Below, in pieces: positions 1,860 through 17,436 of a stretch of DNA of 61,329 nucleotides. The notes below the pieces were generated by a model. The model saw nothing but the letters and a program-made list of their open reading frames with translations, was not told the DNA's origin and made no database searches. The stretch comes from Bacteroidota bacterium (GTDB lineage: Bacteria > Bacteroidota > Ignavibacteria > Ignavibacteriales > Ignavibacteriaceae). The translations under genes were made by a program, and so were the position numbers. The DNA lies in NCBI GenBank assembly GCA_022562275.1, contig JADFPP010000009.1, positions 1 to 61,329 on the forward strand. The letters run 5' to 3'. Numbering within the stretch: the stretch's first letter is position 1; the number at the start of each line of letters is the position of its first letter.

Positions 1860-3182
1860 ATGCTCAAAGGCAAAAAAATGACAGGACAAAACAATCCATC
1901 TTCAATTAAAAGCGGAGTTGGTAATAATGATCCCAACTTAGCGGAATATTCCGGATTCCAATTATTTGGACATCATACTAGGGGAGCAAACTATCCATGT
2001 CCAGTTCTTCCAATCATTAGAATAGAAGGTAAATTAACTGGAGTATTTGATGGCCCCGAATTACAGTATATGAGTGATGATTTTAAATTCATTCGGCATA
2101 GTGACGAACTAAACGCAAATCTAAGCGAATATGATTATAGAACGTGTCGTTTATTTGGGCGTCGTGCAGAAGATGATATTTTATATTATAAAATCAAAGA
2201 ACAGGACGAGTTTTTTCGGGGATTGTTAAGCGATCCGACGCTCTCCGAAAAGGATCCACTTATGATGCTTAGCTTAGCTGAGAGTATTGAGGATCTAGAA
2301 CTGGTACAAAATGGGGTGGAAATTGCCATGAGAAGATTTATGAAAGATTTCCCAGATATTGCAGCACATTTTTATCGGACTCAGATACATGAAATGCGAT
2401 ATCATGAGTGGAGTACCCCCTTGGCATATGAATTAAGTAAACCAAAATATCTAGAGAAACTTATAAGTGATCCAAAAATATTGAGGGATGAAATGAAGAA
2501 GATATTAATTATCGAGGATGATCCTGCAACCTCAAAAGGTCTTGTCGATGCACTAAATGATGAAAACTATCAGACTATGGATGTTGATAATGGGGAAAAA
2601 GGGTATCATCTGGCTAAGAATGAAAAATATGATCTAATCATTTTGGATTTAAAGCTACCGGGTAAAAATGGAATTGATGTTTGTAGGGATTTAAGAAAAG
2701 ATGGAGTGAATACGCCTATAATAATGTTAACAGTTTTGAAAGAAGAACTTGATCAAGTGTTAGGTCTTGAATTAGGAGCTGATGATTATATGACAAAGCC
2801 ATTCAGCTTAAGAGTGTTGTTAGCAAAAATAAAAGCGATTTTAAGAAGAAAATCTGAAATAGTTTCAGATATTGAAGAATATTCTTTTGGTGATGTGTAT
2901 ATTAATTTTAAGGCACAGGAAGCAACTAAGAATAAAAAACCAATAGAACTTACTAATATGGAATTTAAACTACTCAAATATCTTTGCCAGCAGGAAAATG
3001 TAGTAATTGATAGGGACACTTTATTAGATGAAGTTTGGGGTTACCAAAACTATCCTTCGACCAGAACAGTTGATAATTTTATCTTATCACTAAGAAAAAA
3101 AATTGAAGATGATCCTGCTCATCCAGTACACTTACTAACAGTTCATGGTGCAGGCTACAAATTTATTAAAGGGGAAGAATAA
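1860..3182 (+). CDS. PhoB/OmpR response regulator with an unrecognised N-terminal domain
   Basis: 440 aa. Residues 212-440 are a complete OmpR/PhoB regulator: receiver with acidic pair (LIIEDD), phosphoacceptor D263 (LDLKLPG) and K313 (TKPF), then a winged-helix DNA-binding domain (ELTNMEFKLLKYL, TRTVDNFILSLRKKIEDDP, LLTVHGAGYKF). Residues 1-211 are not recognised: a polar, aromatic-rich segment including PCPVLPIIRIEGKLTGVFDG and a helical second half. An ATG at 2493 preceded by a GAGGG-like sequence could start a conventional regulator alone, so the locus may be a true fusion or two genes joined in frame. A second possible start for the long form is 1878. No histidine kinase is adjacent. Confidence 0.82.
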   Translation: MLKGKKMTGQNNPSSIKSGVGNNDPNLAEYSGFQLFGHHTRGANYPCPVLPIIRIEGKLTGVFDGPELQYMSDDFKFIRHSDELNANLSEYDYRTCRLFGRRAEDDILYYKIKEQDEFFRGLLSDPTLSEKDPLMMLSLAESIEDLELVQNGVEIAMRRFMKDFPDIAAHFYRTQIHEMRYHEWSTPLAYELSKPKYLEKLISDPKILRDEMKKILIIEDDPATSKGLVDALNDENYQTMDVDNGEKGYHLAKNEKYDLIILDLKLPGKNGIDVCRDLRKDGVNTPIIMLTVLKEELDQVLGLELGADDYMTKPFSLRVLLAKIKAILRRKSEIVSDIEEYSFGDVYINFKAQEATKNKKPIELTNMEFKLLKYLCQQENVVIDRDTLLDEVWGYQNYPSTRTVDNFILSLRKKIEDDPAHPVHLLTVHGAGYKFIKGEE

Positions 3183-3191
3183 ATAGACAGG

Positions 3192-4616
3192 TTAGCTTGC
3201 CTTTTTTATTATCCTAATCTTTCCCACAAAAGAATCACATGTTTTTTTAATATTTGATGAAGAATTAAATACCCTCTTCTGTGCATGATGTCTCTGAAAG
3301 ATAGAAAGCTTGAAATATATTATGGTTGTAATAGCTATCTTGAGTATGAACTGAGGGATTGATTCCTGAACTGATTGTTTAGATATAAATTTTAACCAGC
3401 GTTTAAATATGTTTTTCCAGGAATAAAAGATCTTATTCACTAGCTTATATATGTCATAAATTTCTTCTTCAGAAAGGTTGTTATGTTTGAACAATACGTG
3501 ATCGCCTTCATAATGAGATATATCATAATCAATTAATCTACCTTCCGAAACAACTTTATCATAAAAAGGAGTACCGTAAATAGGAATTGATATTGAAGGT
3601 AATATGACACAAGTACCAACTTCTTCCAATTTCTGCGGAAGAGTTTCGTAATATTCTTTTGTGTCTTCATCTAATGCAAACATCAATCCGGTAAAGGTTA
3701 ATATACCCTTGCGATGTAGCTTATCGAATACGTCTTTGTATTCTTCAACTTTGTTCTGTCTTTTTTGAACATCTTTAAGACTATCTTCATTTAGTGATTC
3801 CATTCCAATGAATGACATTCTACAATTAGCTTTTGAAAGAAGCTCAACAAACTCATTATCACGTAAACACTCGATACTGTATTGTGTCCCTATACCCCAA
3901 AAGTTAAGCTTTGCTATTTCTCTTAAAAGTTCTTTTGCATTTTTCAGATTACCACCCAAATTATTATCCAGGAGCATCGCCATTTTCTTTTTATACCACC
4001 TAAGACCCTTAGTATTAGTTAAATCGGCGATTACATCCTTTACTGGGCGTGTGCGGTATGGTGAACGAATTATATTTAACTGGCAATATGTGCAGGGATG
4101 AGGACACCCTCTTGAAGTTTCGGTTACAATCGGACTAAAAAATTTAGATTCCACAAGATCATAACGTGGTGGAGGAATATTTTCGAGAGATGGTGCCAGT
4201 CCTGAATCATAACGCTTCTTTAATTTTCCAATTACCATATCTTTAACCATCTGGGGCCAAACATGTTGTGCTTCACCAACCAGAATCGAATCAAAATGTG
4301 GTTGCACTTCATCCGGGAATGTTGAAGCAAATTTACCTCCGCCAATAACTGTTTTACCCATTGCTCTAAACTTAGCTGAAACTTCGTACGCGTGCGGTGA
4401 AATATAATCCATAAAACTTATGGCAATAAAATCCGCATCAGTGTTGTAATTAATTGGTCTCACCATTTCATGAAGTACTTCTACATCCACAATTGGCGGT
4501 GTTAATCCAGCTAATAATATCCCGGGTAAAGGCGGGGCAGGAGTTTTTGCATAGTAAGGTTCCTCGTCTAGTAGATTCTGAAATAATACAATGATCAATA
4601 ATTTTGGCATTTTCAT
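3192..4616 (-). CDS. B12-binding-domain radical SAM protein
   Basis: 474 aa from the ATG at 4616. Residues 1-150 look like a cobalamin-binding Rossmann domain (PPLPGILLAGLTPP, then DADFIAISFMDY and VIGGGKFAS). The 4Fe-4S cluster motif follows as RGCPHPCTYCQL (CxxxCxxC), then a TIM-barrel region with LDNNLGGN and FIGMESLNEDS. The C-terminal 90 residues carry a hydrophobic stretch (QFILKIAITTIIYF) as seen in BchE/HpnJ-type lipid- or pigment-modifying members. Last gene of the minus-strand lipid set, 110 nt after the oxoamine synthase. The reaction is unknown; cobalamin/radical SAM enzymes of this type often methylate or rearrange unactivated carbons. The start is placed at the second ATG because the longer frame begins inside a repeat (4614-4655). 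Confidence 0.85.
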   Translation of the reverse strand: MKMPKLLIIVLFQNLLDEEPYYAKTPAPPLPGILLAGLTPPIVDVEVLHEMVRPINYNTDADFIAISFMDYISPHAYEVSAKFRAMGKTVIGGGKFASTFPDEVQPHFDSILVGEAQHVWPQMVKDMVIGKLKKRYDSGLAPSLENIPPPRYDLVESKFFSPIVTETSRGCPHPCTYCQLNIIRSPYRTRPVKDVIADLTNTKGLRWYKKKMAMLLDNNLGGNLKNAKELLREIAKLNFWGIGTQYSIECLRDNEFVELLSKANCRMSFIGMESLNEDSLKDVQKRQNKVEEYKDVFDKLHRKGILTFTGLMFALDEDTKEYYETLPQKLEEVGTCVILPSISIPIYGTPFYDKVVSEGRLIDYDISHYEGDHVLFKHNNLSEEEIYDIYKLVNKIFYSWKNIFKRWLKFISKQSVQESIPQFILKIAITTIIYFKLSIFQRHHAQKRVFNSSSNIKKTCDSFVGKIRIIKKAS

Positions 4617-4655
4617 ATGTTTATAATTCCTTGTTTTGGTCATATGGAACTCGCA
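4614..4655 (-). repeat. Leader repeat copy A (ATG-N24-ATGAAA block)
   Basis: Read on the minus strand it runs GCGAGTTCCATATGACC, then AAAACAAGGAATTATAAAC, then ATATGAAA. Nearly the same as 47193-47237 and related to 54318-54361 and to the end of the repeat before comEC. It places an in-frame nonapeptide MTKTRNYKH ahead of the radical SAM protein. Confidence 0.8.
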
Positions 4656-4726
4656 TTATAATCATTTCCATGAGTGTAAATGTTTTTTCATGCTCGTTTC
4701 ATTTTTGTGTTTTCTTCCTTTAAAGA

Positions 4727-6052
4727 TTAATTCATAAATGTTTTATTTGATGTTAAGAGTGTGTACTCACTAAAATTTAGTTGTTTATATTCATCCCAAA
4801 TTTCTTCGATGGCTGTCATCATCCTATCGATATCTTCTTTAGTATGTGTTGCCATTACGCTTATCCTGAACCTTTGCTGTGATTTTGGAACTGCCGGGTA
4901 TTCAATGGAGTTAAGAAATAACCCCCTTTGATGGAACTTGAAGGCAGCCTCTCTTATGTTCATTCCCTCAGGCACTTTTAATGGGAAGATTGGCGTAAGA
5001 GAATTATTTTCGAAGCCCAATTCTGTTAGCCGTTGCGCAGTATAATCTATATTTAGTTTTAACTTGTTAATTAATTCAGGTTCGTTCTCCAGTACATCCA
5101 ATCCTGCAAGAACTGAAGCAATTACAGTTGGTGGAGCTGAGGCAGAAAACATATAAGAGCGGGCAAAAAATCTGAGGTAGTTGATAACCGGTTTTGATGC
5201 CGCTACAAAACCACCTGAGGCAGCAAATGTTTTACTAAACGTACCCATCGATATGTCGATCTTTCCTTCCAATCCGAAATGCTCTGCAGTTCCTCGCCCG
5301 GTTTTACCCATTACGCCGGTGCCATGTGCATCATCAAGTATTAGTATGGCATTGTTCAGCTTACAAATGGGAACAATTCTGTTTAAAGGAGCAATATCTC
5401 CGTCCATCGAATATACTCCCTCAACACCGACGAATACATTTCTTCCTTCGTCAACATTAATACGAGTTAAGTACTTCTCTAATTCTTTAACATCGTTGTG
5501 CGGGAAATGTACTGCCCGGACACCTGACATTTTTATACCGTCTGAAAAAGAAGCATGACTGTATCTATCATAAATCACGATATCATTATTATTTAGTAGA
5601 GCGGTTATCAATCCCACATTTGCTCCGTACCCACTTGAAAATATTAGTGCATCTTCACATCCTTTAAGTGCAGCAAGCCGTTCCTCTAATTCTTTGTGAA
5701 GTATTGTATAACCGTTTAATAAAGGTGGTCCGCCAATACCCACACCAAACTTGTTAATTATTCCCGAAACATATTCTTTTACATACGGATGATTTGCTAA
5801 ACCCATGTAATTATTTGAACCAAACATCAACATTGGTTTTACATGCCCCGAATAGGAATCAATAACATCAACCTGCCGATCTGCGGCACTTGTAATACAA
5901 CGCAAATGCTGCATCTCTTTTCTTGTTGTAAGACCTTTAATAAAATCTGAAAAGAAGTCTAATTTTTTGTGAAAACTCATTTTCCTACCCTTAAGCAGAA
6001 TATCCCGCAAATCGAAATTCTCTCCGCCTTTATAATCATTTGTTGCTAACAT
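4727..6052 (-). CDS. Alpha-oxoamine synthase family acyltransferase (PLP)
   Basis: 441 aa from the ATG at 6052, which has AAGG eight bases upstream; a GTG two codons earlier is also possible. Fold type I PLP enzyme: FGSNNYMGLANHP, GGPPLLNGYTILHKELE, SSGYGANVGLI, DDAHGTGVMG, and the Schiff-base lysine in GTFSKTFAASGG. Family members condense an amino acid with an acyl thioester with loss of CO2 (serine palmitoyltransferase, KBL, AONS, CqsA). No other biotin gene is nearby and the neighbours are a lipid kinase and a prenyltransferase, so a long-chain base or similar lipid head precursor is more likely than biotin. The exact amino acid and acyl donor cannot be read from sequence. Confidence 0.85.
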   Translation of the reverse strand: MLATNDYKGGENFDLRDILLKGRKMSFHKKLDFFSDFIKGLTTRKEMQHLRCITSAADRQVDVIDSYSGHVKPMLMFGSNNYMGLANHPYVKEYVSGIINKFGVGIGGPPLLNGYTILHKELEERLAALKGCEDALIFSSGYGANVGLITALLNNNDIVIYDRYSHASFSDGIKMSGVRAVHFPHNDVKELEKYLTRINVDEGRNVFVGVEGVYSMDGDIAPLNRIVPICKLNNAILILDDAHGTGVMGKTGRGTAEHFGLEGKIDISMGTFSKTFAASGGFVAASKPVINYLRFFARSYMFSASAPPTVIASVLAGLDVLENEPELINKLKLNIDYTAQRLTELGFENNSLTPIFPLKVPEGMNIREAAFKFHQRGLFLNSIEYPAVPKSQQRFRISVMATHTKEDIDRMMTAIEEIWDEYKQLNFSEYTLLTSNKTFMN

Positions 6053-6148
6053 TATCACACCTTTTAGTTTTAAATAAATTTAATATTGTTTCTACAAGTA
6101 AATCTAAATCAGATTTAGCAGAGATGTGTCAGAGAGATGTAAGAAGAT

Positions 6149-6167
6149 TGTCAAAATGTTGTCATTT
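6149..6167. promoter_or_regulatory. Pho-box-like direct repeat before the oxoamine synthase
   Basis: TGTCA-N6-TGTCA (11-bp period) in the 121-nt gap between the ThiL-like gene and the oxoamine synthase, 97 bp before the latter's start. It has the same period and the same orientation relative to the genes as the array at 9181-9211. Two half-sites only, so weaker than the upstream array. Confidence 0.4.
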
Positions 6168-6173
6168 ACTATT

Positions 6174-7208
6174 TTATAATGAGCTGTCAATCTCTAAAAG
6201 AGATTTTAGATAGGAATTTAAGTTGAAGTTTTTCCGGCTGCCAATATTTCGAATTCTTTCTGTAGGTAATTTAACCGGTTCATCGTTTATATTTAGGTAA
6301 AATCCTTCTTTACTTTGAATTTCTCCTATCCGTAAAAAATGAAGTGAGTGTTGAAATGATATTTTTTCTAGAATTGATACTTTTTCGGTGGGTACTGTAA
6401 ATACTAATTCAAACTCACCATGCTGACCGGCTAGCAGAAACCAATTAGGAAGATTTAATTCTTTCATAACAGTTTTTGAATTAACATCCATTTTGTCATT
6501 CCAATCCGGAACCATTTTTATTCCCACATTATTTAATCTCATAAGTTGATCCAGTGCGGCAATCACCCCATCACTTGTATCAATACAGCAGGATGCAATT
6601 CCGCAAATAGCTTTGCCGACTTTAAGCCGGGCAATCGGCTTATAATTAATTTTATTTTCCATATCAGCCAACTGTGTTAATGCATATGCATTACCTATAC
6701 CTAACTTTCCTGTTGTATAAAGTACATCACCTGGTTTGCATCCTGTGCGTGTATTGAACATTTTATTTTTTGTTATGCCAATGGCGGTGGCTGAGATTAT
6801 TAATTGCTTCCCAAAGTTTGTATCGCCTCCAATTACATAGGTACTGCATACCTTGCAGGCATCGCTTATGCCATTGTGCAATTTTGTTCTGAAACTATCA
6901 TCAAGGAAGTCCGGAAGAATCTCAGAAACTAAAACACCAACCGGTGTTGCACCAACTGCAGCAAGATCACTCATATTAACCATTACCGTCATCCATCCAA
7001 TTAAATAAGGATCTTTATAAATGCCTACTTCAATTTCTTCAACTATTGAATCTGTAGTTACAGCTAACTGATCATTTTTCAGAAGGTTAATATTCAAAAG
7101 CTCGGAATCACTCTCCTGAAGTTTGTTGATTTGAATCGGAGAGCGATTATAATTTTTAGTAATATCTTCAATTAACTTATTCTCAGTTATTGAATTTAGT
7201 TTATACAT
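6174..7208 (-). CDS. ThiL/AIR-synthase-like ATP-dependent enzyme
   Basis: 344 aa from the ATG at 7208 (AAGGA nine bases upstream); the first 13 residues of a longer frame overlap the kinase gene and are discarded. The order of motifs is that of thiamine-monophosphate kinase: TTDSIVEEIEV, DPYLIGWMTVMVNMSDLAA, VIGGDTN, CCIDTSDGV and GEFELVFTVP. In ThiL the last motif is GEDYEL; here the Asp-Tyr is replaced by Phe, and the middle motif differs too. Together with its place in a lipid gene set (13-nt overlap with the lipid kinase) this suggests a paralogue working on another phosphorylated substrate. True thiamine-phosphate kinase is not excluded, as no second copy is in view. Confidence 0.72.
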   Translation of the reverse strand: MYKLNSITENKLIEDITKNYNRSPIQINKLQESDSELLNINLLKNDQLAVTTDSIVEEIEVGIYKDPYLIGWMTVMVNMSDLAAVGATPVGVLVSEILPDFLDDSFRTKLHNGISDACKVCSTYVIGGDTNFGKQLIISATAIGITKNKMFNTRTGCKPGDVLYTTGKLGIGNAYALTQLADMENKINYKPIARLKVGKAICGIASCCIDTSDGVIAALDQLMRLNNVGIKMVPDWNDKMDVNSKTVMKELNLPNWFLLAGQHGEFELVFTVPTEKVSILEKISFQHSLHFLRIGEIQSKEGFYLNINDEPVKLPTERIRNIGSRKNFNLNSYLKSLLEIDSSL

Positions 7209-8125
7209 ACTCTGATCCTTTTTTTTAACAACGAAAATCGTGCACAATGAGTTCTGATTATCTCTCCATCGAACTCTACTTTAAATGGTTTTTCAGCTTT
7301 TATTAATATTGAACTTGATTGTGAGGAGTTGAATACATTAGCGGCATTTGCTTTATTATTCTGCAATTGATGCAATATTTTTATCAGTTCAATTTTAGTT
7401 GTATCACAGAGCAAGTGAATATTAAGTAACCCATTGTTATAATTGGGTGTGTAATTTAATTTTAGATTACCAGAGATATATGGACTTTTAGTGATTGCAA
7501 GATTTGCAACTCTAAATATTTTAGCAATTTTATTAGAGTCAATCATCTTTAGTTCGATATTTTTGTATCTCATAATTGTATGTATAGCTGAATAAATAAT
7601 TGCTGCACTGGTATTTATTCTTTTAAATAATTTGAGAATAAAATTAGGGTGATTAAAAAAATAATTTGCTTCTGCCGTTACTCCTATGCTAGCATTTATC
7701 AGGAAGTACTTCTTGATTCTTCTCGCATTGTGAACATAAGTTATACATCCAATATCTCTTTTTGTGGTAGTAGTAAAATCAACTTTACATGGAATGCCAT
7801 TGATAAGGCGATTTGAATTCATCGGTTTATGGAAGTCGTTGCTTGAGCCAAGACCAATTGCTCCGATTTGGATTTCATCAATTATTGTTTTTGATGGATT
7901 CGATAAGATTTCATTCAATAAGTAGTTAATGGTTCCATCACCCCCAGCCGCAATAAATTTTCTTTCTCCCTTTAATATTGCATTTGAAATATCCAAATTC
8001 GCATTTGAATTATTATCCACCTTATGACCTGCTTCGAATTCAACTAAAGGAAGTGAATTTTTAATTCTATCCCATTTCTTTAATGCGTTCCCCCCAAAAG
8101 CACGAGTATTCAATAGTAAAAACAT
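7196..8125 (-). CDS. Diacylglycerol kinase-family lipid kinase
   Basis: 309 aa, the usual length of the YegS/DgkB family. The nucleotide motif GGDGTINYLLNE is at residues 80-91 and the second motif GLGSSNDFHK at about 113-122; the C-terminal beta domain ends FKVEFDGEIIRTHCARFSLL, as in the family. These enzymes phosphorylate lipid hydroxyls (diacylglycerol, sphingoid bases, undecaprenol) at the membrane. It sits 7 nt after the prenyltransferase and overlaps the ThiL-like gene, so it is part of the same transcript. The lipid substrate cannot be inferred, but pairing with an oxoamine synthase makes a long-chain base plausible. Confidence 0.86.
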   Translation of the reverse strand: MFLLLNTRAFGGNALKKWDRIKNSLPLVEFEAGHKVDNNSNANLDISNAILKGERKFIAAGGDGTINYLLNEILSNPSKTIIDEIQIGAIGLGSSNDFHKPMNSNRLINGIPCKVDFTTTTKRDIGCITYVHNARRIKKYFLINASIGVTAEANYFFNHPNFILKLFKRINTSAAIIYSAIHTIMRYKNIELKMIDSNKIAKIFRVANLAITKSPYISGNLKLNYTPNYNNGLLNIHLLCDTTKIELIKILHQLQNNKANAANVFNSSQSSSILIKAEKPFKVEFDGEIIRTHCARFSLLKKRIRVCIN

Positions 8126-8132
8126 CTCTAGC

Positions 8133-9122
8133 CTATATTTGATTCTTAGATGGTCTGAATTTTAAAACAATCGAAAAGCAAAAGTAAAAAATGAATAAGT
8201 GAAGTATCCATTCCGGCTTTTGAGAAGCTATGATTGCAGAAAGTAGTAATACATAACTTTTCACCGATGGTATTACAGCAATATGAGCTTCAGAATCTTT
8301 CTTTATATCACGCAAAAGCAGTTGAATTGACAGAACTTTAAATGCTCCGAATAAAAGAAAAAATAATGATGGTATCAGTGGTAGTAAACTGAGAAAATTG
8401 TTGTAAGAATCGAATATAGCTAATACCGTGAAGACCACTGCGGAAATTCCAAATATATCACTCACGAATGAAGCCCACTTTTTACCATATACAACCGGAA
8501 GCGTATTATATCCGGTTGCTCTGTCTGCTTCTATATCTTTAAAATAACCCACAAGAACAAAATTTGAGTATGCAAAAAAAACAGCAGCGATTGTAAATAT
8601 AAATTTCGAGGAGAAATCTATTGTCATCCCCTTAACACCACTCAAATATGCCATAAGAAAAAGTAAGGCAACAATCCAGGAGTTGTAGAGTGGACCTGCC
8701 CACCATTTCTTTTTAAAAATTGTATAGGTTGCCAATCCAACACCTGCAGTTATACCAAGTATCAGAGATGGTGGATAAAAAATGCTGAAGACAGTTATAC
8801 AATATGTTAACCCTATAGCACTGATAATAAGAAATTCTATGCGGCTCACAATCCCTTGAGTTAGAGGTCGGTAAGGTGATGAAATTGAGTCGGTATCTAT
8901 TTGGAAACAATCTGTTAGTGCCTGACCAAATCCGTACGATAAAAATGAAGCTGAAAATATAATTATACCATCTACTAAGTTGAGGTTGCTTACAAATGAA
9001 AGACCTGCAATGCCGGTAATTCCAGAAATAAATAACAAATAAGGTCTCATTGTTATGAAATAAGCTTTTATAAAAGATGGTGAAAGTAACTTGTATGTAT
9101 GAACCGAATATTGATTTTGCAT
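8133..9122 (-). CDS. UbiA-family prenyltransferase
   Basis: 329 aa from the ATG at 9122 (AGGA ten bases upstream); the longer frame from 9182 has no RBS. Eight or nine hydrophobic segments. The first aspartate motif is ALTDCFQIDTDSISSPYRPL (D-x3-D-x-D form) and the second is GYFKDIEADRATGYNTLP; both bind prenyl diphosphate through Mg2+. Members prenylate aromatic or polar acceptors (ubiquinone, menaquinone, chlorophyll, archaeal ether lipids). No quinone gene is adjacent, and the gene leads a lipid-enzyme operon. Across the divergent promoter are IPP isomerase and a polyprenyl diphosphate synthase, which could supply its donor. Confidence 0.87.
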   Translation of the reverse strand: MQNQYSVHTYKLLSPSFIKAYFITMRPYLLFISGITGIAGLSFVSNLNLVDGIIIFSASFLSYGFGQALTDCFQIDTDSISSPYRPLTQGIVSRIEFLIISAIGLTYCITVFSIFYPPSLILGITAGVGLATYTIFKKKWWAGPLYNSWIVALLFLMAYLSGVKGMTIDFSSKFIFTIAAVFFAYSNFVLVGYFKDIEADRATGYNTLPVVYGKKWASFVSDIFGISAVVFTVLAIFDSYNNFLSLLPLIPSLFFLLFGAFKVLSIQLLLRDIKKDSEAHIAVIPSVKSYVLLLSAIIASQKPEWILHLFIFYFCFSIVLKFRPSKNQI

Positions 9123-9436
9123 TTTCTCATTCCTTACTAATTTTAATTTCTGTTGGAATGATACATAGCCGAGCGAACCCAAATGTCATCATTTTGTCAT
9201 CATTTTGTAAAATTTTAATTATTCGCCAATTTCAATTAAGGCAAAGTATAATTGCAGATAAATTTTACGCTTCCTCATATTTACTTTTTTAATTTTTTCT
9301 CTTAATATTCCTTGCATTATTACAGATCATCCATTCTATGTTGCATTTTTAATCATCAAAGGGTTAGAACAAAAAGTATTTTAATACGATTTTTAATATC
9401 TTTCTTCTCATTTAATCTCATTCTTTACAAGCACTT
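9123..9436. other. Divergent promoter region between lipid set and isoprenoid operon
   Basis: 314 bp with no convincing gene. It holds the TCATCATTTTG tandem array (9181-9211). On the minus strand the array is followed by TTTG and, about 16 bp on, TATCATTC, a loose -33/-7 pair for the prenyltransferase. The rest is AT-rich without clear signal. Confidence 0.55.
9181..9211. promoter_or_regulatory. Pho-box-like direct repeat array
   Basis: TGTCATCATTT / TGTCATCATTT / TGTAA: three TGT(CA) half-sites with exact 11-bp period. The E. coli Pho box is CTGTCAT-N4-CTGTCAT, the same period and core. Read toward the lipid genes the repeat is inverted, and it abuts a TTTG that could be the -33 element. 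It lies 64 bp before the prenyltransferase start and 230 bp before fni. Confidence 0.5.
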
Positions 9437-10483
9437 ATGAATCCGGATAAGAGTAAAACATCACAACGGAAAAAAGAGCATCTTGAGTTGTGTCTCACAG
9501 ACGATGTATCATTTAAGAGAAAGTCTACAGGATTTGAAAATTATGAGTTTAAGCATTATGCAATTACTGAAGTTGATATTGCTAAAATTGATTTTACCGG
9601 TGAATTTGTTGGTAAAAAAATAAAATATCCGTTTCTTATTTCGTGCATGACAGGAGGAACTACTGAAGCGGAAAATATTAATGCACAACTTGCTCTTGTT
9701 GCAGAAGAGTTAAAAATACCAATCGGTGTTGGCAGCCAAAGGCAGGCACTTGAGAATAACGAATTTGTTAACTCTTTTAAGATCGTGAGAAAAAATGCTC
9801 CGAGTGTACCGATATTGGGGAATATCGGTGCGGCACAAGTCACTCAATTTAACTCTATCGATCCGATTAATAAACTTTTGGAGATGATTATGGGTGACGC
9901 TCTTGTTATTCATGTTAATCCGTTACAAGAATTGCTACAAAAGGAGGGAGAAATTAATTTTTCCGGCTTTTTAGATAAAGTTATAACTTTGGTTAATAAT
10001 TTAAAGGTGCCTGTTATTGTTAAAGAAGTCGGCTCAGGAATATCGGAAGAAGCGGCAGAAAAATTGTTAGAAGCAGGAGTGAAAGGCATAGATGTTTCTG
10101 GAGCAGGAGGAACAAGCTGGGCAGGTGTTGAAATTTTGCGGAATAAAGATGATCAGAATAATTATTTGTGGGATTGGGGTCTTCCAACCTCATACTGTAT
10201 AAAAGAAGTGTTTAAGCTGAAGAAAAATTATAAATTTACTTTAATCGGTTCGGGTGGAATTAAAAACGGTTTGGACGCCGCAAAAGCATTTGCCCTGGGA
10301 GTGGATATAGTTGCATCAGCGAGACAGGTACTGCAAATACTTCATAAATATGGAGTAGAAAAAACCGCTGACTACATTCAAAGCATATTTCATGAAATAA
10401 GTGAAATCATGTATTTAACCGGTTCACAAAATTTAAATGATCTGAGAATGAATAAACTTATTAGAAAGGAATTATTTTATTAG
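9437..10483 (+). CDS. fni: Type 2 isopentenyl-diphosphate delta-isomerase
   Basis: 348 aa TIM-barrel FMN enzyme that interconverts IPP and DMAPP. Family marks: RKKEHLELCL near the N-terminus, SCMTGGT, GVGSQRQALE, ILGNIGAAQ, HVNPLQELLQKEGE with the substrate-binding His/Asn/Gln, VIVKEVGSGIS, DVSGAGGTSWAGVE and the FMN phosphate site IGSGGIKNGLDAAKA. The length is standard. It starts a co-directional run; the downstream prenyl synthase overlaps its stop codon by one base. Type 2 enzymes are unrelated to the idi type and need reduced flavin. Confidence 0.95.
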   Translation: MNPDKSKTSQRKKEHLELCLTDDVSFKRKSTGFENYEFKHYAITEVDIAKIDFTGEFVGKKIKYPFLISCMTGGTTEAENINAQLALVAEELKIPIGVGSQRQALENNEFVNSFKIVRKNAPSVPILGNIGAAQVTQFNSIDPINKLLEMIMGDALVIHVNPLQELLQKEGEINFSGFLDKVITLVNNLKVPVIVKEVGSGISEEAAEKLLEAGVKGIDVSGAGGTSWAGVEILRNKDDQNNYLWDWGLPTSYCIKEVFKLKKNYKFTLIGSGGIKNGLDAAKAFALGVDIVASARQVLQILHKYGVEKTADYIQSIFHEISEIMYLTGSQNLNDLRMNKLIRKELFY

Positions 10484-11475
10484 TGAATGCGAATATTAAA
10501 AAATACAATTTGCTTTATGAGAAAGAAAGAAAAAAAATTAATGCAATTTTGCACGGAACTGTTAAGAACAGAAAACCATCATCACTATACATCCCGGCTG
10601 CATACATAATTAATAGTGAAGGGAAAAGAATTCGTCCTTTCTTAGTGCTGTTATCGGCTGGAGCAGTTGGAGGCAATTTTAGTCAGGCATATAATGCAGC
10701 AGTTGCAGTTGAACTGCTTCACGATTTTACACTCGTGCACGATGATATAATGGACAATGCGGAAAAGCGTCGGGGAAAACTAACTCTTCATAAAAAATAT
10801 AATAAGAATACTGCGATTTTAGTTGGAGATAGTTTACTTTCAGTTGCTTATGAATATTTGCTTAAAGACTGTAATGGTTATTCAAAAAGTATTATATCAT
10901 CGTTTACCAGCGGATTAATTGAGGTATGCGAAGGACAGATACTTGATACCGATTATGAAGCAAGAAAATACGTTTCATTATCTGAATACTTATTAATGAT
11001 TAAAAAGAAAACAGCTTCGATGGTAAAAATGTGTTGCGAGATTGGGGCAACACTTGGCGGGGGAACAGAAAAGGAGATAAAGGGAATTGCAAACTACGGA
11101 TTAAACATTGGAATTGCTTTTCAAGTTCAGGATGATCTACTGGATATAATAGCGGATGAAAATAAATTTGGTAAAAGAATTGGCAGTGATCTTATTGAAG
11201 GGAAGAAGACATATTTGTTTATTAAAGCACTTGAAAAAGCAAGAGGTGAGGATCGTAAATTGTTGAGCAAAGTTGTTGATAATAAAGGTATTGGGATAAA
11301 TCAGGTTAAAAAATATAAAGAGTTATATGAAAGATTAGGTGTAATTGCCGATGCAAGAAAGACAATAAATTATTATACAAAAAAAGCATTAAATTCCCTT
11401 AATGTAATTAAAAAAATATCGGACAAAGAAATATTGGTTTGGTTAGCCGATGAATTACTTAAAAGAATTAGATGA
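10483..11475 (+). CDS. All-trans polyprenyl diphosphate synthase
   Basis: 330 aa, GTG start overlapping the fni stop (TAGTG). First aspartate-rich motif LVHDDIMDNAEKRRG and second FQVQDDLLDIIAD, with the RPFL region before them (GKRIRPFLVLLSAGA). Elongates allylic diphosphates with IPP. The residues five and four before the first motif (F, T in DFTLVHDD) are small or medium, so the chain may be longer than C15; length prediction from this alone is unsafe. Followed without a gap by ptsH. Confidence 0.92.
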   Translation: MNANIKKYNLLYEKERKKINAILHGTVKNRKPSSLYIPAAYIINSEGKRIRPFLVLLSAGAVGGNFSQAYNAAVAVELLHDFTLVHDDIMDNAEKRRGKLTLHKKYNKNTAILVGDSLLSVAYEYLLKDCNGYSKSIISSFTSGLIEVCEGQILDTDYEARKYVSLSEYLLMIKKKTASMVKMCCEIGATLGGGTEKEIKGIANYGLNIGIAFQVQDDLLDIIADENKFGKRIGSDLIEGKKTYLFIKALEKARGEDRKLLSKVVDNKGIGINQVKKYKELYERLGVIADARKTINYYTKKALNSLNVIKKISDKEILVWLADELLKRIR

Positions 11476-11741: not shown

Positions 11742-13504
11742 AATCATTTTCAGACGTATATAGAAATGCTGAAAATAAAATTGCCGGTATAGCCGCTGCC
11801 CCCGGTATTGTTATAGGGGAAGTTTATCTCTTTACAAAAGAAAAACTTGAAATAAATGATGCCGATATCACTGATGTAAAAGAAGCAAAGAAAAATCTTC
11901 TCGAAGCATTAGAAAAGTCAAAAAAAGAATTTAATAAGATCTTTGCAATTGCTAAGGAAAAAATGGGAGAAACTCGTGCAGGCATTTTTGAAGCGCAATT
12001 AATGATACTTGATGATCAGGTTCTGATAGGGAACATCATTAAAAGAATTGAAAAAGAAAAGAAACAACCTGAATTTATTGTCGATGATGAAATATCTAAA
12101 TACCAAAATTTAATGGTTATGTCTCACGAGGCATATATGAAAGAACGTGCAAATGATATTGAGGATATTAAGAATCGAATTGTAAGAAACCTCCGAAATA
12201 AGCGCTGGAAATCAAAATTTAGAAATGATGTTATAATCGTAAGTGAATCGTTAACACCTGCTGATATATTATTACTCTCTAGAAATAAAGTCAAAAGTTT
12301 CATAACCGATCATGGTGGATTAACTTCACATGCAGCAATCATTTCAAGATCATTAAATATTCCAGCCGTTGTCGGAACTCATAATGCCACTTTAAAGTTA
12401 GCAGACGGACAAAATGTTATTGTTGATGGATTTCACGGTTACGTCCTTTTTGATCCGACTGAAGAACAAATTTCTTTCTTTGAAGAGAAACATAATCATC
12501 TGATTGCATTACAGAAACAACTTGAAGAATTTAAAGATAAACGTGCAGTTACTAAAGATGGAAAAGAGATTCAAATGCTTGCCAATGTGGATGTAACTGG
12601 TGAAATAGATCTTGTATTAACCAGTGGTGCAAAGGGGATAGGTCTTTATCGCTCCGAGCAAATCCTGGATGAGATCGAAACAATTCCGAGTGAGGATGAA
12701 CAGGTAAAAATATATGCAAGATTAGCATCCAGAATTTATCCTGATTTCATTACTATCAGGGCATTTGATATTGGCGGCGATAAGTTTAAGTTGTTTGATT
12801 ATGATGAACCAAATCCATTCCTTGGGTTAAGAGGGCTCCGCTTGCTTTTGGAGAACCCTAAATTGTTTAAGGAACAGATCCGTGCAGTTCTTCGATCTAG
12901 CAGCCATAAGAATATAAAATTTATGCTTCCGATGGTAAGTACCTTAAGTGAAATTCATCATTCGAAAAAAATTATCTCGGATTGTATGGATGAACTATCA
13001 ACCAAAAATATCCCTTTCGATAAAGATATGGAAATTGGCATTATGGTAGAGGTTCCATCGGCAGCAGTGATGGCAAAAGAATTTGCGGATGAAGTGGATT
13101 TTCTCAGCATCGGTACAAATGATTTGATTCAGTACCTGATGGCTGTTGACAGAGGTAATGAATTAGTTTCCGATTTATACCAGGAATTTAGTCCGGTTGT
13201 ATTAAGAACATTAAAAAAGATAATTGATGATTCTAAACTCGCAGGTAAACCGGTGAGCCTTTGTGGCGAGATGGCTGCTGATACACTTGCAATGCCTTTA
13301 CTTGTTGGTCTCGGACTTGAATCGATGAGCATTTCCCCGGCAACTATTCCGTATGCAAAAAAAATTATTGCGAGTTTCAATTATAAGGATTCAAAACTAA
13401 TGGCAGAAAAATGCTTATCAGTCTGTGATGAAGAAGGGGTTCAGAAAATAATAGAAAAATTCTTTAGTGACAATAAAATAATTCGTACAAGAAACATAAT
13501 ATAA
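11738..13504 (+). CDS. ptsI: PTS Enzyme I, phosphoenolpyruvate-protein phosphotransferase
   Basis: 588 aa, full length. N-terminal domain begins GIAAAPGIVIGEVY; active histidine H198 in HGGLTSHAAIISRSL; PEP-binding TIM barrel with ANVDVTGEI, GLYRSEQIL, ITIRAFDIGGDK, FLGLRGLRLLL, VEVPSAAVMA, SIGTNDLIQY and the cysteine in VSLCGEMAAD. Takes phosphate from PEP and passes it to HPr. Only the general PTS components are present here, wedged between isoprenoid genes and a sugar-phosphate isomerase. Confidence 0.95.
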   Translation: MKSFSDVYRNAENKIAGIAAAPGIVIGEVYLFTKEKLEINDADITDVKEAKKNLLEALEKSKKEFNKIFAIAKEKMGETRAGIFEAQLMILDDQVLIGNIIKRIEKEKKQPEFIVDDEISKYQNLMVMSHEAYMKERANDIEDIKNRIVRNLRNKRWKSKFRNDVIIVSESLTPADILLLSRNKVKSFITDHGGLTSHAAIISRSLNIPAVVGTHNATLKLADGQNVIVDGFHGYVLFDPTEEQISFFEEKHNHLIALQKQLEEFKDKRAVTKDGKEIQMLANVDVTGEIDLVLTSGAKGIGLYRSEQILDEIETIPSEDEQVKIYARLASRIYPDFITIRAFDIGGDKFKLFDYDEPNPFLGLRGLRLLLENPKLFKEQIRAVLRSSSHKNIKFMLPMVSTLSEIHHSKKIISDCMDELSTKNIPFDKDMEIGIMVEVPSAAVMAKEFADEVDFLSIGTNDLIQYLMAVDRGNELVSDLYQEFSPVVLRTLKKIIDDSKLAGKPVSLCGEMAADTLAMPLLVGLGLESMSISPATIPYAKKIIASFNYKDSKLMAEKCLSVCDEEGVQKIIEKFFSDNKIIRTRNII

Positions 13505-13510
13505 ACGCTT

Positions 13511-14542
13511 ATGAAAATAGAAGAATTAATAAAGAATAACGATACTCAAAATCAGTTCCAGGTACTGATTGACTCTTATAAACAAATAGAGAATGCCTGG
13601 AACAACAAAATAGATTTGGAAGATGAATCTAAGAATAAGTTCAACAATATTATTGTTGCGGGGATGGGCGGCTCAGCAATTAGTGCAGATCTGCTAAAAA
13701 GTTTTTTAGGAAACGAACTACGAATACAACTTCAGGTATGCCGTGATTATTCTTTACCGTATTATGCCACTGAAAACTCTTTGGTAATTATTTCATCTTA
13801 TTCCGGAAATACAGAAGAAACCATTTCTTGTTTAGAAGATGCCATACAAAAAAAATGCAAATTGATCATTGTTTCAACCGGCGGTAAAGTAAAAACTATT
13901 GCACAGGAAAACAATATACCCTGGATCAATCTTCAGAAAGGATTTCAACCAAGATATGCATTGGGTGTTGGTTTTTTTACTCTGCTTAAAATATTGCAAT
14001 CATTAAATATTATACCTAACCAAAGTGAAGTTGTAAATAAAGTGAAAGAACTTTGGAAGAATAAAGGCATAGAATATTCAACTACGGAAAACACTGCTTT
14101 AACTATCGCAGAAGAATTGGTAGGTTTTATTCCCTTGATTTATTCTTCTACTGGATTAGAAGCAGTGGGATATCGATTAAAATGTCAATTCAATGAAAAT
14201 TCGAAATTGCACGCTTTTAATAATGTTATACCTGAATTAAATCACAACGAAATTATAGGTTGGGAAACATTCGAGGATAAGCAATTAAACGCAAAACTAA
14301 TTGCAATTTTAGATAATGAATATCATCCGCAAATTATTAAGCGGTTTAGTATAACAAGGAAACTTGCAAAAAAAAGTAAGGTTGAAATACTGACCCTTAG
14401 AAGCAGTGAAAATGATTTTAAGGTACGAATAATGGATTTGATTTATTTGGGTGATTGGATAACTTATTATCTATCTATACTCAGGGATTTTGATCCTTCG
14501 GAAATAGATTATATACATGAGCTAAAGCAACGCCTGGTTTAA
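13511..14542 (+). CDS. Bifunctional phosphoglucose/phosphomannose isomerase
   Basis: 343 aa with two SIS domains. The first reads IIVAGMGGSAISADLLKSF and VIISSYSGNTEETISCLEDA; the C-terminal part contains NENSKLHAFNNVIPELNHNE, the characteristic substrate-closing segment of the archaeal/bacterial PGI-PMI family. Interconverts fructose-6-phosphate with glucose-6-phosphate and mannose-6-phosphate. Seven bases after ptsI, so likely in the same transcript, linking PEP-dependent phosphotransfer to hexose phosphate use. Confidence 0.88.
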   Translation: MKIEELIKNNDTQNQFQVLIDSYKQIENAWNNKIDLEDESKNKFNNIIVAGMGGSAISADLLKSFLGNELRIQLQVCRDYSLPYYATENSLVIISSYSGNTEETISCLEDAIQKKCKLIIVSTGGKVKTIAQENNIPWINLQKGFQPRYALGVGFFTLLKILQSLNIIPNQSEVVNKVKELWKNKGIEYSTTENTALTIAEELVGFIPLIYSSTGLEAVGYRLKCQFNENSKLHAFNNVIPELNHNEIIGWETFEDKQLNAKLIAILDNEYHPQIIKRFSITRKLAKKSKVEILTLRSSENDFKVRIMDLIYLGDWITYYLSILRDFDPSEIDYIHELKQRLV

Positions 14543-14613
14543 GTTGTTAGTTGCTATGCAATAAAAACTTAGCAGCACAAAATATTTAAGTCATAATTCA
14601 TCCGTAAATAATT

Positions 14614-17436
14614 GTGATCTTTAATCGGTTTTCTAAATATCTTTTCTTATTCATTCTCCTTTATGCGCAGGTTATGTCGGCTCAATATTTCTTTTTCGGA
14701 AGAAACAAAGTTCATTACGAAGACTTTGATTGGAAAGTAATGCGAACCGAGCACTTCGATATTTTCTATTACGGTGAAATGCAGAGCATTGCTGAGATCG
14801 GTGCATATTACGCTGAACAGGTTTATGACGAATTGAAAGTTGAAATGAATAATGTAGTAACACGCAGGGTTCCACTTATTTTTTATAACACTTCTTTGGA
14901 ATTCCAGCAAACAAATATTACCCCGGGGTTGCTGCCCGAGGGTGTTGGCGGTTTTTTTGAATTTTTGAAAGGGAGAGTTGTATTGCCCTCAACCGGTTCG
15001 CTTAAAGATTTTAAGCATGTTATTAGGCATGAACTGGTACACGTTTTTATGACGAACAAAGTTTACCGCGTTTTACGCGACCACAAATTACCAACTAACC
15101 GGATGCCTCCTTTATGGTTTGTTGAAGGTCTTGCTGAGTATTTATCTACCGATATGGATTCGCAGGCAGAAATGGTGATGAGAGATGCCGTTATTAATAA
15201 TTATCTTGTAGGCATTAAAGATATATTCAAGATATTCGGTAGTTTTTTAATGTATAAAGAAGGACAAAGCTTCCTTGAATTTGCTGGTGAAAAATATGGC
15301 AAGCAGCGTGTACTGGATATTCTAGAAAATATTTGGACAAACAGTGCTTTTAGCCGCGTGCTAGAATATACCTTTAAAAAAGATCTTGAAGAATTAGATG
15401 CAGAATGGCAATACTACTTAAAGCAAAAGTATTATCCCTTATTAGAAAAAGTTCTTCCTCTTTCAATAGGTGCAAAAAAAATTACGCGGGAGGGTTTTAA
15501 TTTTTCTCCTGTTAGTTTTACAATTGACAGTATTAAATTTATATACTTCATTGCTAACCGTGATGGCTATTCATCAATTTACAGAATGCCGATTGCTTCC
15601 GACAATAAACCGTTGGATGATCCATCAATTGTTTTACGCGGAGAAAAGGATGAAGAGTTTGAAGCATTTCATTTATTTCAATCTGGTTTGGATGTTTCAT
15701 CGGAAGGTCTAATAGCATTTGTTACAAAAAAGGGCGGTACCGATGCCATTCATTTCTTTTCTATTTACCGAAACGAGATTGTTAAAAGATTCCATACTCG
15801 TGATTTGGTGAATATTATCTCACCCAAATTTTCTGATAATGGTAACAGAGTTGTTTTCCACGCAGTTGACAGAAAGGGTTTTATGGATTTATACATTTAT
15901 GATCTTTTAGATGATAAACTTTACCGCATAACCAACGATTACTACGATGACAGAGATCCAATATTTGGTTTGAATGACAGGCAAATAATTTTTACTTCAG
16001 ATAGAACAAGCGGAATATCTGAAAAAAAGTATAACCTTTTCTCAATCAATCTTGATACCTATGAAATTGAATACATAACTTATTTAAATGCCCATAACTT
16101 TTCACCACTTCTGTCTGCAGATAAGAAGAAATTATTATTTATTTCCGAATTAGATGATGTAAGAAACATTTGGGAAATAAACATTGAAGAAAACCAATTC
16201 AGTAAACAAATTAAACGAATTACTAGATTTATTACCAGCGTTTTCACTCCTGTTTATTTAGATTCCTCTTCAATTGCATTATCGGGATTTGAGAATTTCT
16301 CAATTAACATTTATGTGATTAACAATTATCAAACAGTTTTAGATTCTGTTGAACTAATAACAATGGAAATAGATTCGGCAAAAGATAAATGGATGGCAAA
16401 TCAAATACAGCTTCCATCCGAAAGAAAAAAAATTGAGTATGAAAAAGAGTACGCACTTGATTTTGCACAAAGTGTAGTTACAACCGATCCGATTTTTGGA
16501 ACAAGGGGCGGAGCAATTTTATCTTTAAGTGATTTATTAGGTGATGACCGCTATCATCTTTTAATTTATAATTCGGCAAACGTGCAAAGTGATTTTTTAA
16601 GAAGCTTTAACATAATATTACAAAGAGCCAACCTTGGTAAAAGAGTGAACTATGGTTATGGTGTTTTTCATTTAAGCGGAAGAAGATATGATTTAAGAGA
16701 TCCGGATGAATTTTTTTTCGAAAGAACTTTCGGAGGTTTTTTTGGAATTAATTTTCCTGTTTCAAAATTTCAAAGGTTGGAAGCAAATATAACTGTAGCA
16801 AATTCTGATAAAGAAATTATTACCGGCGTTATTGAAAGAAAAGCATTACTGGTTACAAACACCATCGCTTACATTCACGATAATTCACTGTGGGGACCAA
16901 CAGGTCCGTTAGCCGGAAGCAGAGGTATTCTGCTGCTTGGTTACACTTCCGATATTAAATTTAGTAATGTTAATTATTTTTCTGTGGTTGCAGATTACAG
17001 GTATTATGCACGGGTTGCCTTAACAACTTTATTCGCCTTCAGAGTTGCATTGTTTTATAATGAAGGAAAAGAAGCAAGGAGATACGTGATTGGGGGTTCC
17101 TGGGATCTCAGAGGTTATCCCAGATTTTCAATAAGAGCAAAGCAAATATGGTTTACTTCCGTGGAATTTCGCTTTCCACTAATTGATCAGCTTAACATTA
17201 AGTTTCCAATTTTAAGCTTGGGTTTTTTTGGAATTAGAGGTGCCTTCTTTTTTGATATGGCTGGCATAGGGGATAATGGTTTTAAGGAAACACTTGGTTC
17301 TGTTGGAGGAGGAATAAGATTGAATGTTTTTGGAGTTCTTACTTTAAGATATGATATAGGAAAAAAAATAGAAAATAATTTTACTCGTTTTCAAGATGGC
17401 TTGTTTTATCAATTCTTTTTTGGATGGGACTTCTGA
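14614..17436 (+). CDS. Secreted gluzincin-like peptidase / beta-propeller / outer-membrane barrel fusion
   Basis: 940 aa, GTG start. Signal peptide 1-23 (FLFILLYAQVMSA, cleaved before Q24). Residues 35-280: metallopeptidase-like domain with HELVH (H139, E140, H143) and a third ligand candidate E171 in WFVEGLAEYLS. Residues 290-600: TolB/WD40-like repeats (SPKFSDNGNRVVFHA, DRDPIFGLNDRQIIFTSDR). Residues 640-940: BamA/Omp85-type beta strands (GGSWDLRGYPRFS, GFFGIRGAFFFDMAGIGD) ending in aromatic FFFGWDF. The propeller would face the periplasm and the barrel would sit in the outer membrane. First of three overlapping envelope genes. Its substrate is unknown; both zinc ligands and the glutamate are intact. 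Confidence 0.82.
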   Translation: MIFNRFSKYLFLFILLYAQVMSAQYFFFGRNKVHYEDFDWKVMRTEHFDIFYYGEMQSIAEIGAYYAEQVYDELKVEMNNVVTRRVPLIFYNTSLEFQQTNITPGLLPEGVGGFFEFLKGRVVLPSTGSLKDFKHVIRHELVHVFMTNKVYRVLRDHKLPTNRMPPLWFVEGLAEYLSTDMDSQAEMVMRDAVINNYLVGIKDIFKIFGSFLMYKEGQSFLEFAGEKYGKQRVLDILENIWTNSAFSRVLEYTFKKDLEELDAEWQYYLKQKYYPLLEKVLPLSIGAKKITREGFNFSPVSFTIDSIKFIYFIANRDGYSSIYRMPIASDNKPLDDPSIVLRGEKDEEFEAFHLFQSGLDVSSEGLIAFVTKKGGTDAIHFFSIYRNEIVKRFHTRDLVNIISPKFSDNGNRVVFHAVDRKGFMDLYIYDLLDDKLYRITNDYYDDRDPIFGLNDRQIIFTSDRTSGISEKKYNLFSINLDTYEIEYITYLNAHNFSPLLSADKKKLLFISELDDVRNIWEINIEENQFSKQIKRITRFITSVFTPVYLDSSSIALSGFENFSINIYVINNYQTVLDSVELITMEIDSAKDKWMANQIQLPSERKKIEYEKEYALDFAQSVVTTDPIFGTRGGAILSLSDLLGDDRYHLLIYNSANVQSDFLRSFNIILQRANLGKRVNYGYGVFHLSGRRYDLRDPDEFFFERTFGGFFGINFPVSKFQRLEANITVANSDKEIITGVIERKALLVTNTIAYIHDNSLWGPTGPLAGSRGILLLGYTSDIKFSNVNYFSVVADYRYYARVALTTLFAFRVALFYNEGKEARRYVIGGSWDLRGYPRFSIRAKQIWFTSVEFRFPLIDQLNIKFPILSLGFFGIRGAFFFDMAGIGDNGFKETLGSVGGGIRLNVFGVLTLRYDIGKKIENNFTRFQDGLFYQFFFGWDF

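Follow-up and report, generated by a model that had tools for sequence, protein, structure and literature searches.

The bacterial ceramide pathway (Spt, bCerS, and CerR) begins with an oxoamine synthase, serine palmitoyltransferase (SPT), and one survey (PMC11334938) reports 33 Cloacimonadota metagenome-assembled genomes (MAGs) with no bCerS or CerR within 10 open reading frames (ORFs) of the Spt-like gene. Enzymes of other described systems are also relevant here. In thiamine-phosphate kinase (ThiL), the phosphate of the substrate makes an in-line attack on the gamma-phosphate of ATP, the pyrimidine is turned toward the solvent, and the GDD loop contacts the ribose-phosphate of ATP (PMC6416309). 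AprD4 is a radical S-adenosylmethionine (SAM) diol dehydratase with an NADPH-dependent reductase partner (PMC5461906), and BtaA makes diacylglycerol-O-homoserine from SAM (PMC10685587). Archaeal digeranylgeranylglyceryl phosphate (DGGGP) synthase is a UbiA-fold enzyme partnered by geranylgeranylglyceryl phosphate (GGGP) synthase. We analyzed a stretch of 61,329 nucleotides (the window) from a Bacteroidota bacterium of the Ignavibacteriaceae (GenBank assembly GCA_022562275.1, contig JADFPP010000009.1, positions 1 to 61,329), in which genes for a UbiA-fold enzyme, a YegS/DAGK-type kinase, a ThiL paralog, an alpha-oxoamine synthase (AOS), and a radical SAM protein lie together. This five-gene neighborhood is a real, rare, and patchily spread unit, carried by a small number of bacteria in several distantly related groups. 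It looks like an assembly line of an undescribed membrane lipid that reuses remodeled versions of vitamin- and quinone-making enzymes.

Linkage, divergence, and spread of the cluster

Five minus-strand ORFs occupy positions 3192 to 9122 (up to 9182 if the longest UbiA ORF is counted) (Table 1), confirming the first-pass annotation of five genes in one direction with overlap or small gaps, 9122 being an in-frame ATG within the UbiA ORF. The spacing is 7 bp between UbiA and DAGK, 115 bp between ThiL and AOS, and 83 bp between AOS and the radical SAM gene; DAGK and ThiL overlap by 52 bp with the longest ThiL ORF and by 13 bp if ThiL begins at the internal ATG at 7208. None of the five proteins scored over a cut-off among the NCBIfam models listed. 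The nearest families were BchE and HpnJ for the radical SAM protein (Pfam and NCBIfam) and BioF and SPT for AOS, while the kinase scored 62.2 bits with TIGR00147 (YegS/Rv2252/BmrU subfamily; cut-off, 118.65).

A UbiA protein query over bacterial genomes gave 21 loci in one scan, and tblastn placed other cluster genes next to UbiA in Ignavibacteria, Calditrichia, Kapaibacterium, a Cloacimonadota bacterium, Bacteroidales, Aquimarina, and Legionella gresilensis. Counts given here refer to 37 loci, one per genome, ranging from Ignavibacteria to Cloacimonadota with one Legionella. L033 and G594 (L087), cut by contig ends, and L053, G581, and G109, which repeat counted genomes, were dropped beforehand, and L030 and L099, two contigs of one genome, were pooled; L105 and L025 end at contig ends. 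DAGK is on the same strand as UbiA in all 37 loci and within 400 bp of it in 35, and DAGK and ThiL are at most 400 bp apart in 29 of 32 same-strand pairs, UbiA, DAGK, and ThiL being the tightest group. The kinase motifs GGDG[TS] and DGE are present in 37/37 and 36/37 loci, respectively. The ThiL paralog is found in 34 loci, AOS in 35, and the radical SAM gene in 21; in one locus each, the ThiL paralog and the radical SAM gene are on a second contig, and of the AOS genes one is a remnant and another is cut by a contig end. Pairwise-distance correlations among the five families were 0.68 to 0.82, and for each of the 10 pairs 0 of 1,000 permutations was as high, although shared organism history contributes to these values. 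Neighbors are therefore conserved across related genomes, whereas the first-pass annotation had named their scattering as evidence against a pathway. Its five-gene pathway stands as a conserved set, but only four of the genes form the core; the radical SAM gene is replaceable and tends to accompany a gene for a short-chain dehydrogenase/reductase (SDR). Linkage over 37 loci likewise supports a conserved lipid-type gene set; no description of it was found in open-licence literature, so its absence from print is not shown.

The cluster is rare. When the genome of the query was counted each time, it was present in 12/97 genomes of relatives, 7/395 of the phylum, 1/112 Legionellaceae, 4/40 in the phylum of a Calditrichia locus, and 10/147 in that of the Cloacimonadota locus. 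The radical SAM protein was found in 17 of 26 cluster genomes versus 0 of 10 cluster-free relatives. Rarity and patchy spread suggest horizontal transfer and loss. Carriage on plasmids was rejected, as the radical SAM query gave eight plasmid records at 25 to 35% identity, none with 80% query coverage, and the Legionella UbiA query gave no match.

Table 1. Genes of the cluster and its flanks in the window
Feature	Position	Strand	Evidence and remarks
UbiA-fold membrane enzyme	8133..9182	-	PF01040, 75.2 bits; likely start, in-frame ATG at 9122
YegS/DAGK-type lipid kinase	7196..8125	-	DAGK_cat, 37.7 bits (cut-off, 23.6)
ThiL paralog, proposed lipid-phosphate kinase	6174..7247	-	AIRS, 78.6; TIGR01379 thiL, 181.5 (cut-off, 184.15); likely start, ATG at 7208
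Alpha-oxoamine synthase (AOS), serine palmitoyltransferase/BioF-like	4727..6058	-	Aminotran_1_2, 178.3 bits
Radical SAM protein, AprD4-like fold, exchangeable module	3192..4643	-	Radical_SAM, 59 bits
OmpR-type response regulator	1860..3182	+	Convergent with cluster; possible regulator, membership unproven
Type 2 isopentenyl diphosphate (IPP) isomerase and polyprenyl diphosphate synthase	9437..11475	+	TIGR02151, 392.8 bits (over cut-off); PF00348, 242.9; divergent from UbiA

Remodeled ThiL and UbiA-fold proteins

The cluster paralog has in common with ThiL the fold family, the phosphate- and metal-binding Asp residues, and DxSDG, but it differs at several ThiL motifs and in its lipid-gene context. 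In an alignment with eight genuine ThiL rows, 45 columns are conserved in seven or more of these; one row, L059, is a wrong ORF, so "conserved" here means 7 of 8. Over these columns, the 27 cluster rows kept 23, changed 16, and partly kept 6. Asp47, Asp66, Asp94, and Asp142 are kept in 33 of 34 paralogs (one row is cut) and Asp223 and Asp226 in 34/34, and Arg167 and DxSDG are also retained. The altered catalytic motif reported by the first-pass annotation is real: the first Asp of GDD is replaced by Ser, Ala, or Thr, Ala by Glu49, and Lys by Met86, the HF pair is changed, and the GGED region reads AGxHGE. The natural reading is that the paralog may perform phosphate chemistry on another substrate; amidation, suggested earlier, gained no specific support.

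A chance gathering of five housekeeping genes, with the ThiL copy serving thiamine, was considered and weighed by a census of ThiL in 26 cluster genomes and 30 cluster-free relatives (curated cut-off of TIGR01379, 184.15). The window paralog lies just 2.65 bits under this cut-off, and 18 of the 26 cluster genomes have no ThiL over it, as a housekeeping role would allow. No cluster copy exceeds the cut-off, however (128 to 182 bits where whole), and a genuine ThiL (274 to 330 bits) coexists with the cluster copy in 8/26 genomes; the paralog is therefore probably not the thiamine enzyme and is distinct from the housekeeping ThiL that had been raised as a possible identity. None of the 30 cluster-free relatives has ThiL over the cut-off, so the clade mostly does without it. 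The linkage and correlated divergence in 37 genomes also count against chance, as do four other UbiA proteins in the window's own genome and a second AOS in 21/26 cluster genomes. Housekeeping ThiL was rejected as an explanation, and this alternative is largely contradicted and very improbable.

The UbiA-fold enzyme resembles archaeal DGGGP synthase in fold, overall sequence, the Y and K of motif 2, and two Asp residues of motif 3. In its structural model (pLDDT, a model confidence score, 89.7), DGGGP synthase ranks first by Foldseek, and it is also the nearest solved relative by profile. The two differ at three metal or acceptor positions. The first Asp motif of the window protein is TDCFQIDTD, and TDxxQxDxD, rather than the NDxxDxxxD of prenyl transferases, occurs in 37/37 loci, with T90, D91, Q94, D96, D98, Y213, K215, D216, and D220 invariant. 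By profile alignment, N62, D66, and D180 of DGGGP synthase correspond to T, Q, and Y in the cluster enzyme, whereas D70, D183, and D187 are kept (37/37). In DGGGP synthase, alanine mutants of D66, D70, D180, D183, and D187 have strongly lowered activity, and the acceptor is expected to lie close to N62 and Y125 (PMC9385802). The four UbiA paralogs of the window's own genome carry NDxxD in three cases and NHxxE in one; in one of the four (L003), Asn occupies the D180 position, which is thus variable among UbiA proteins outside the cluster as well. Judging from these motifs, the cluster enzyme probably differs in its use of donor or metal, and prenyl transfer, as suggested earlier, is uncertain because the first Asp motif is altered in 37/37 loci. 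The cluster enzyme is accompanied by AOS and the ThiL paralog, in contrast to GGGP synthase for DGGGP synthase. A role as a phosphoribosyl transferase (8j8k and 8j8j; fold ranks 13 and 15) was considered and had no positive support.

The main rival to the pathway proposed below is an archaeal-like hybrid lipid, in which the kinase would make a long-chain-base phosphate, the UbiA enzyme would transfer a prenyl chain to it from a prenyl diphosphate, much as DGGGP synthase acts on GGGP, and the ThiL paralog would later make a diphosphate for head-group chemistry. It draws on the kinship with DGGGP synthase by both profile and fold, on the acceptor of that enzyme, a phosphorylated one-chain lipid (PMC9385802), and on the genes for IPP isomerase and polyprenyl diphosphate synthase that divergently adjoin the cluster in the window and in L018, a same-genus relative. 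Conversely, two of the residues replaced throughout the 37 loci, D66 and D180, are needed in DGGGP synthase (PMC9385802), the later diphosphate would have no user in the cluster, and the isoprenoid genes are neighbors in this genus only; they are a possible prenyl supply, but their membership in the cluster is doubtful. Prenylation of a base phosphate is possible, if on balance unlikely, and the data do not decide between it and the proposed pathway.

A far-diverged second cluster (G011:C32, L098, 4510 to 12000) brings together a ThiL-like gene, an NAD-epimerase (HpnA-like), another radical SAM gene, UbiA, an Old Yellow Enzyme (OYE)-type flavoprotein, AOS, and DAGK, with identities of 26% for UbiA and 32% for AOS. 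Its genome was among those used as cluster free. The UbiA protein of this cluster likewise has Gly and Tyr, not Asp, at the positions of D66 and D180. A query with it matched 11 of 395 genomes, and no such cluster was present in the short stretches analyzed from all 11 or in the longer ones from 7; four of the UbiA proteins from these genomes have canonical first motifs. The G011-type cluster is thus a single case. Among plasmids, its ThiL query retrieved only the housekeeping thiL of Legionella adelaidensis and its UbiA query retrieved nothing.

Exchangeable tailoring modules and the proposed pathway

The likeness to the ceramide pathway lies in an SPT-like oxoamine synthase as the first enzyme and in an SDR of a type that might reduce a 3-keto group, linked in 13 loci. 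The differences are an AOS below the SPT cut-off and a core that also contains two kinases and an enzyme of the UbiA fold. The best solved relatives of AOS are SPTs, and it scores 362 bits in the window with the SPT model NF047600 (cut-off, 640); Cloacimonadota-type loci have an AOS of another subfamily nearer to SPT (456 to 462 bits in the three copies scanned, same cut-off). Its amino acid specificity is not readable from sequence, and the GGPPLLNG motif is not general (21/35). A probable acyl-CoA ligase gene is present in L106 (FadD11 model, 308 bits; NCBIfam was run on this locus only), and similar genes in L031, where the gene is split over two ORFs, L100, and L104 were judged by eye. Of the three cluster SDRs scanned, two have the KdsR model among their 25 best matches (125 and 146 bits; cut-off, 400), never in first place, and the third does not.

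Relatives of AOS include the synthase of the quorum signal CAI-1 (E value, 5e-30), which, together with a patchy spread resembling that of secondary metabolism, would suit a signal, pigment, or cofactor of low abundance, a small molecule derived from an amino ketone, rather than a bulk membrane lipid. A lipid kinase in every locus, with an acyl-CoA ligase and a BtaA-family lipid enzyme in some, argues against such a product, as does the long-helical C-terminal part of the modeled radical SAM protein, which is compatible with, but no proof of, membrane contact. We consider a small-molecule product improbable.

The model of the radical SAM protein (pLDDT, 78) has AprD4 as its closest fold (Z score, 27.4 over 383 residues; next, 23.7), and CxxxCxxC is present in 21/21 sequences. 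AprD4 and its reductase, AprD3, form a deoxygenation pair, and a putative reductase gene often lies beside the cluster radical SAM gene, although none was seen beside that of the window; the AprD4 substrates are aminoglycosides, and identity is 16 to 18%. The cobalamin label given by the first-pass annotation lacks support: the B12-binding Pfam scores 20.6 bits in the window protein (cut-off, 32.1), the nearest fold is AprD4, and DxHxxG occurs in 3/21 sequences, in the radical SAM core (alignment columns ∼226 to 231), with none in the N-terminal domain. Some cobalamin enzymes lack DxHxxG, so the protein might still bind cobalamin. The methylation or rearrangement of the chain that the first-pass annotation proposed found no specific support.

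Two sets of tailoring genes accompany the core. An SDR gene is linked in 13/21 radical SAM loci versus 0/16 others (P = 7e-5 by a Fisher test, which ignores shared ancestry). A DUF3419 (BtaA family) gene is present in L028, L035, L052, and L102 (Pfam was run on the first two; the others are tblastn matches) and absent from the window, and in three of the four a GNAT gene precedes or follows it. DUF3419 is found in 4/16 loci without the radical SAM gene versus 0/21 with it (P = 0.03, Fisher test, again ignoring shared ancestry). Mapped onto the UbiA tree, the distribution of DUF3419 requires four changes, at least two of them forced by well-supported branches, although L035 and L052 are long branches. 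The SDR-radical SAM and DUF3419-GNAT modules never occur in the same locus, and 12 loci, some cut by contig ends, have neither. The lack of co-occurrence and the repeated changes on the tree suggest that tailoring modules seem to be swapped on a common core.

Individual loci hold further genes. In L052, a high-GC locus, ∼1.8 kb between AOS and DUF3419 (12887 to 14708) is not assigned to a gene. The Aquimarina locus (L038, 2761 to 13385) adds FabA/FabZ-like, ketosynthase, DUF3089, carbamoyltransferase, and fatty acid hydroxylase genes; L036, where AOS is only a remnant, has the DUF3089 gene in common with it.

We propose the following pathway. First, AOS would condense an acyl-CoA, supplied in some clusters by their own acyl-CoA ligase, with an amino acid, most likely serine, to form a 3-keto long-chain base. 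Second, the YegS-type kinase would phosphorylate a lipid hydroxyl. Third, the ThiL paralog would transfer the gamma-phosphate of ATP in line to the lipid phosphate, as ThiL does with thiamine phosphate, giving a lipid diphosphate. Fourth, the UbiA-fold enzyme, with a metal site unlike that of prenyl transferases, would draw on the lipid diphosphate to couple the base with a second hydrophobic partner, at the point where ceramide synthase would N-acylate. Finally, the SDR and the AprD4-like radical SAM protein may remove a hydroxyl or an amino group that is adjacent to a hydroxyl, followed by ketone reduction; alternatively, the BtaA-like enzyme may add a 3-amino-3-carboxypropyl group, with acylation by GNAT. 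The order from kinase to ThiL paralog to UbiA enzyme is proposed on three grounds: ThiL converts a phosphate to a diphosphate, diphosphates are substrates of UbiA enzymes, and the three genes are the most tightly linked. That the cluster encodes one dedicated lipid pathway is highly probable; that it makes a long-chain-base lipid by precisely these steps is a tentative proposal, somewhat short of an even chance. More speculative, and held with low confidence, is a new class of two-chain bacterial lipids, in which a base diphosphate made by the two kinases would be coupled by a UbiA-fold enzyme departed from prenyl chemistry and then either deoxygenated or deaminated by a lipid-specific AprD4-like/SDR pair or capped with a homoserine-type group.

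Several points weigh against this pathway. While gene identities, linkage, correlated divergence, module exchange, and motif changes are observed, we infer every reaction, their order, and the product. L101 has no nearby ThiL, L108 lacks both ThiL and AOS, and in L036 AOS is reduced to a remnant. The nearest relative of the UbiA-fold protein is, by profile and fold, a true prenyl transferase. UbiA enzymes normally ionize allylic diphosphates; the use of a saturated lipid diphosphate would call for new chemistry. By sequence profile, TsrM, MgmA, and CysS come ahead of AprD4, so the class of the radical SAM protein is surer than its closest member. At the threshold used, 8/21 radical SAM loci, the window included, have no SDR, and counting the SDR-like ORF that lies 2.3 kb away in L036, a locus with no radical SAM gene, changes P to 6e-4; shared ancestry remains unaccounted for in both Fisher comparisons.

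Flanking genes and implications

The C-terminal half of the response regulator that converges on the cluster has relatives at 50 to 71% identity near the cluster in 12 other loci. The window protein has ∼205 extra N-terminal residues, and matches of at least 50% identity in the compared cluster loci start at residue 201 or later. Between the window and L018, the ThiL paralog and DAGK are 43 to 44% identical and AOS and the radical SAM protein are 82 to 83% identical, reflecting fast change or replacement of both kinases.

If the proposal is correct, a lipid pathway exists beside the ceramide and archaeal routes, and the ThiL and UbiA families have new functions. On the two-chain reading, it would provide the second chain where an Spt-like gene lacks a neighboring ceramide synthase. 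The pathway is also a candidate explanation, open to testing, for the 33 Cloacimonadota MAGs in which neither ceramide synthase nor reductase genes adjoin the Spt-like gene (PMC11334938). Further, annotations of thiL, ubiA, and bioF/kbl in such genomes may hide lipid genes.

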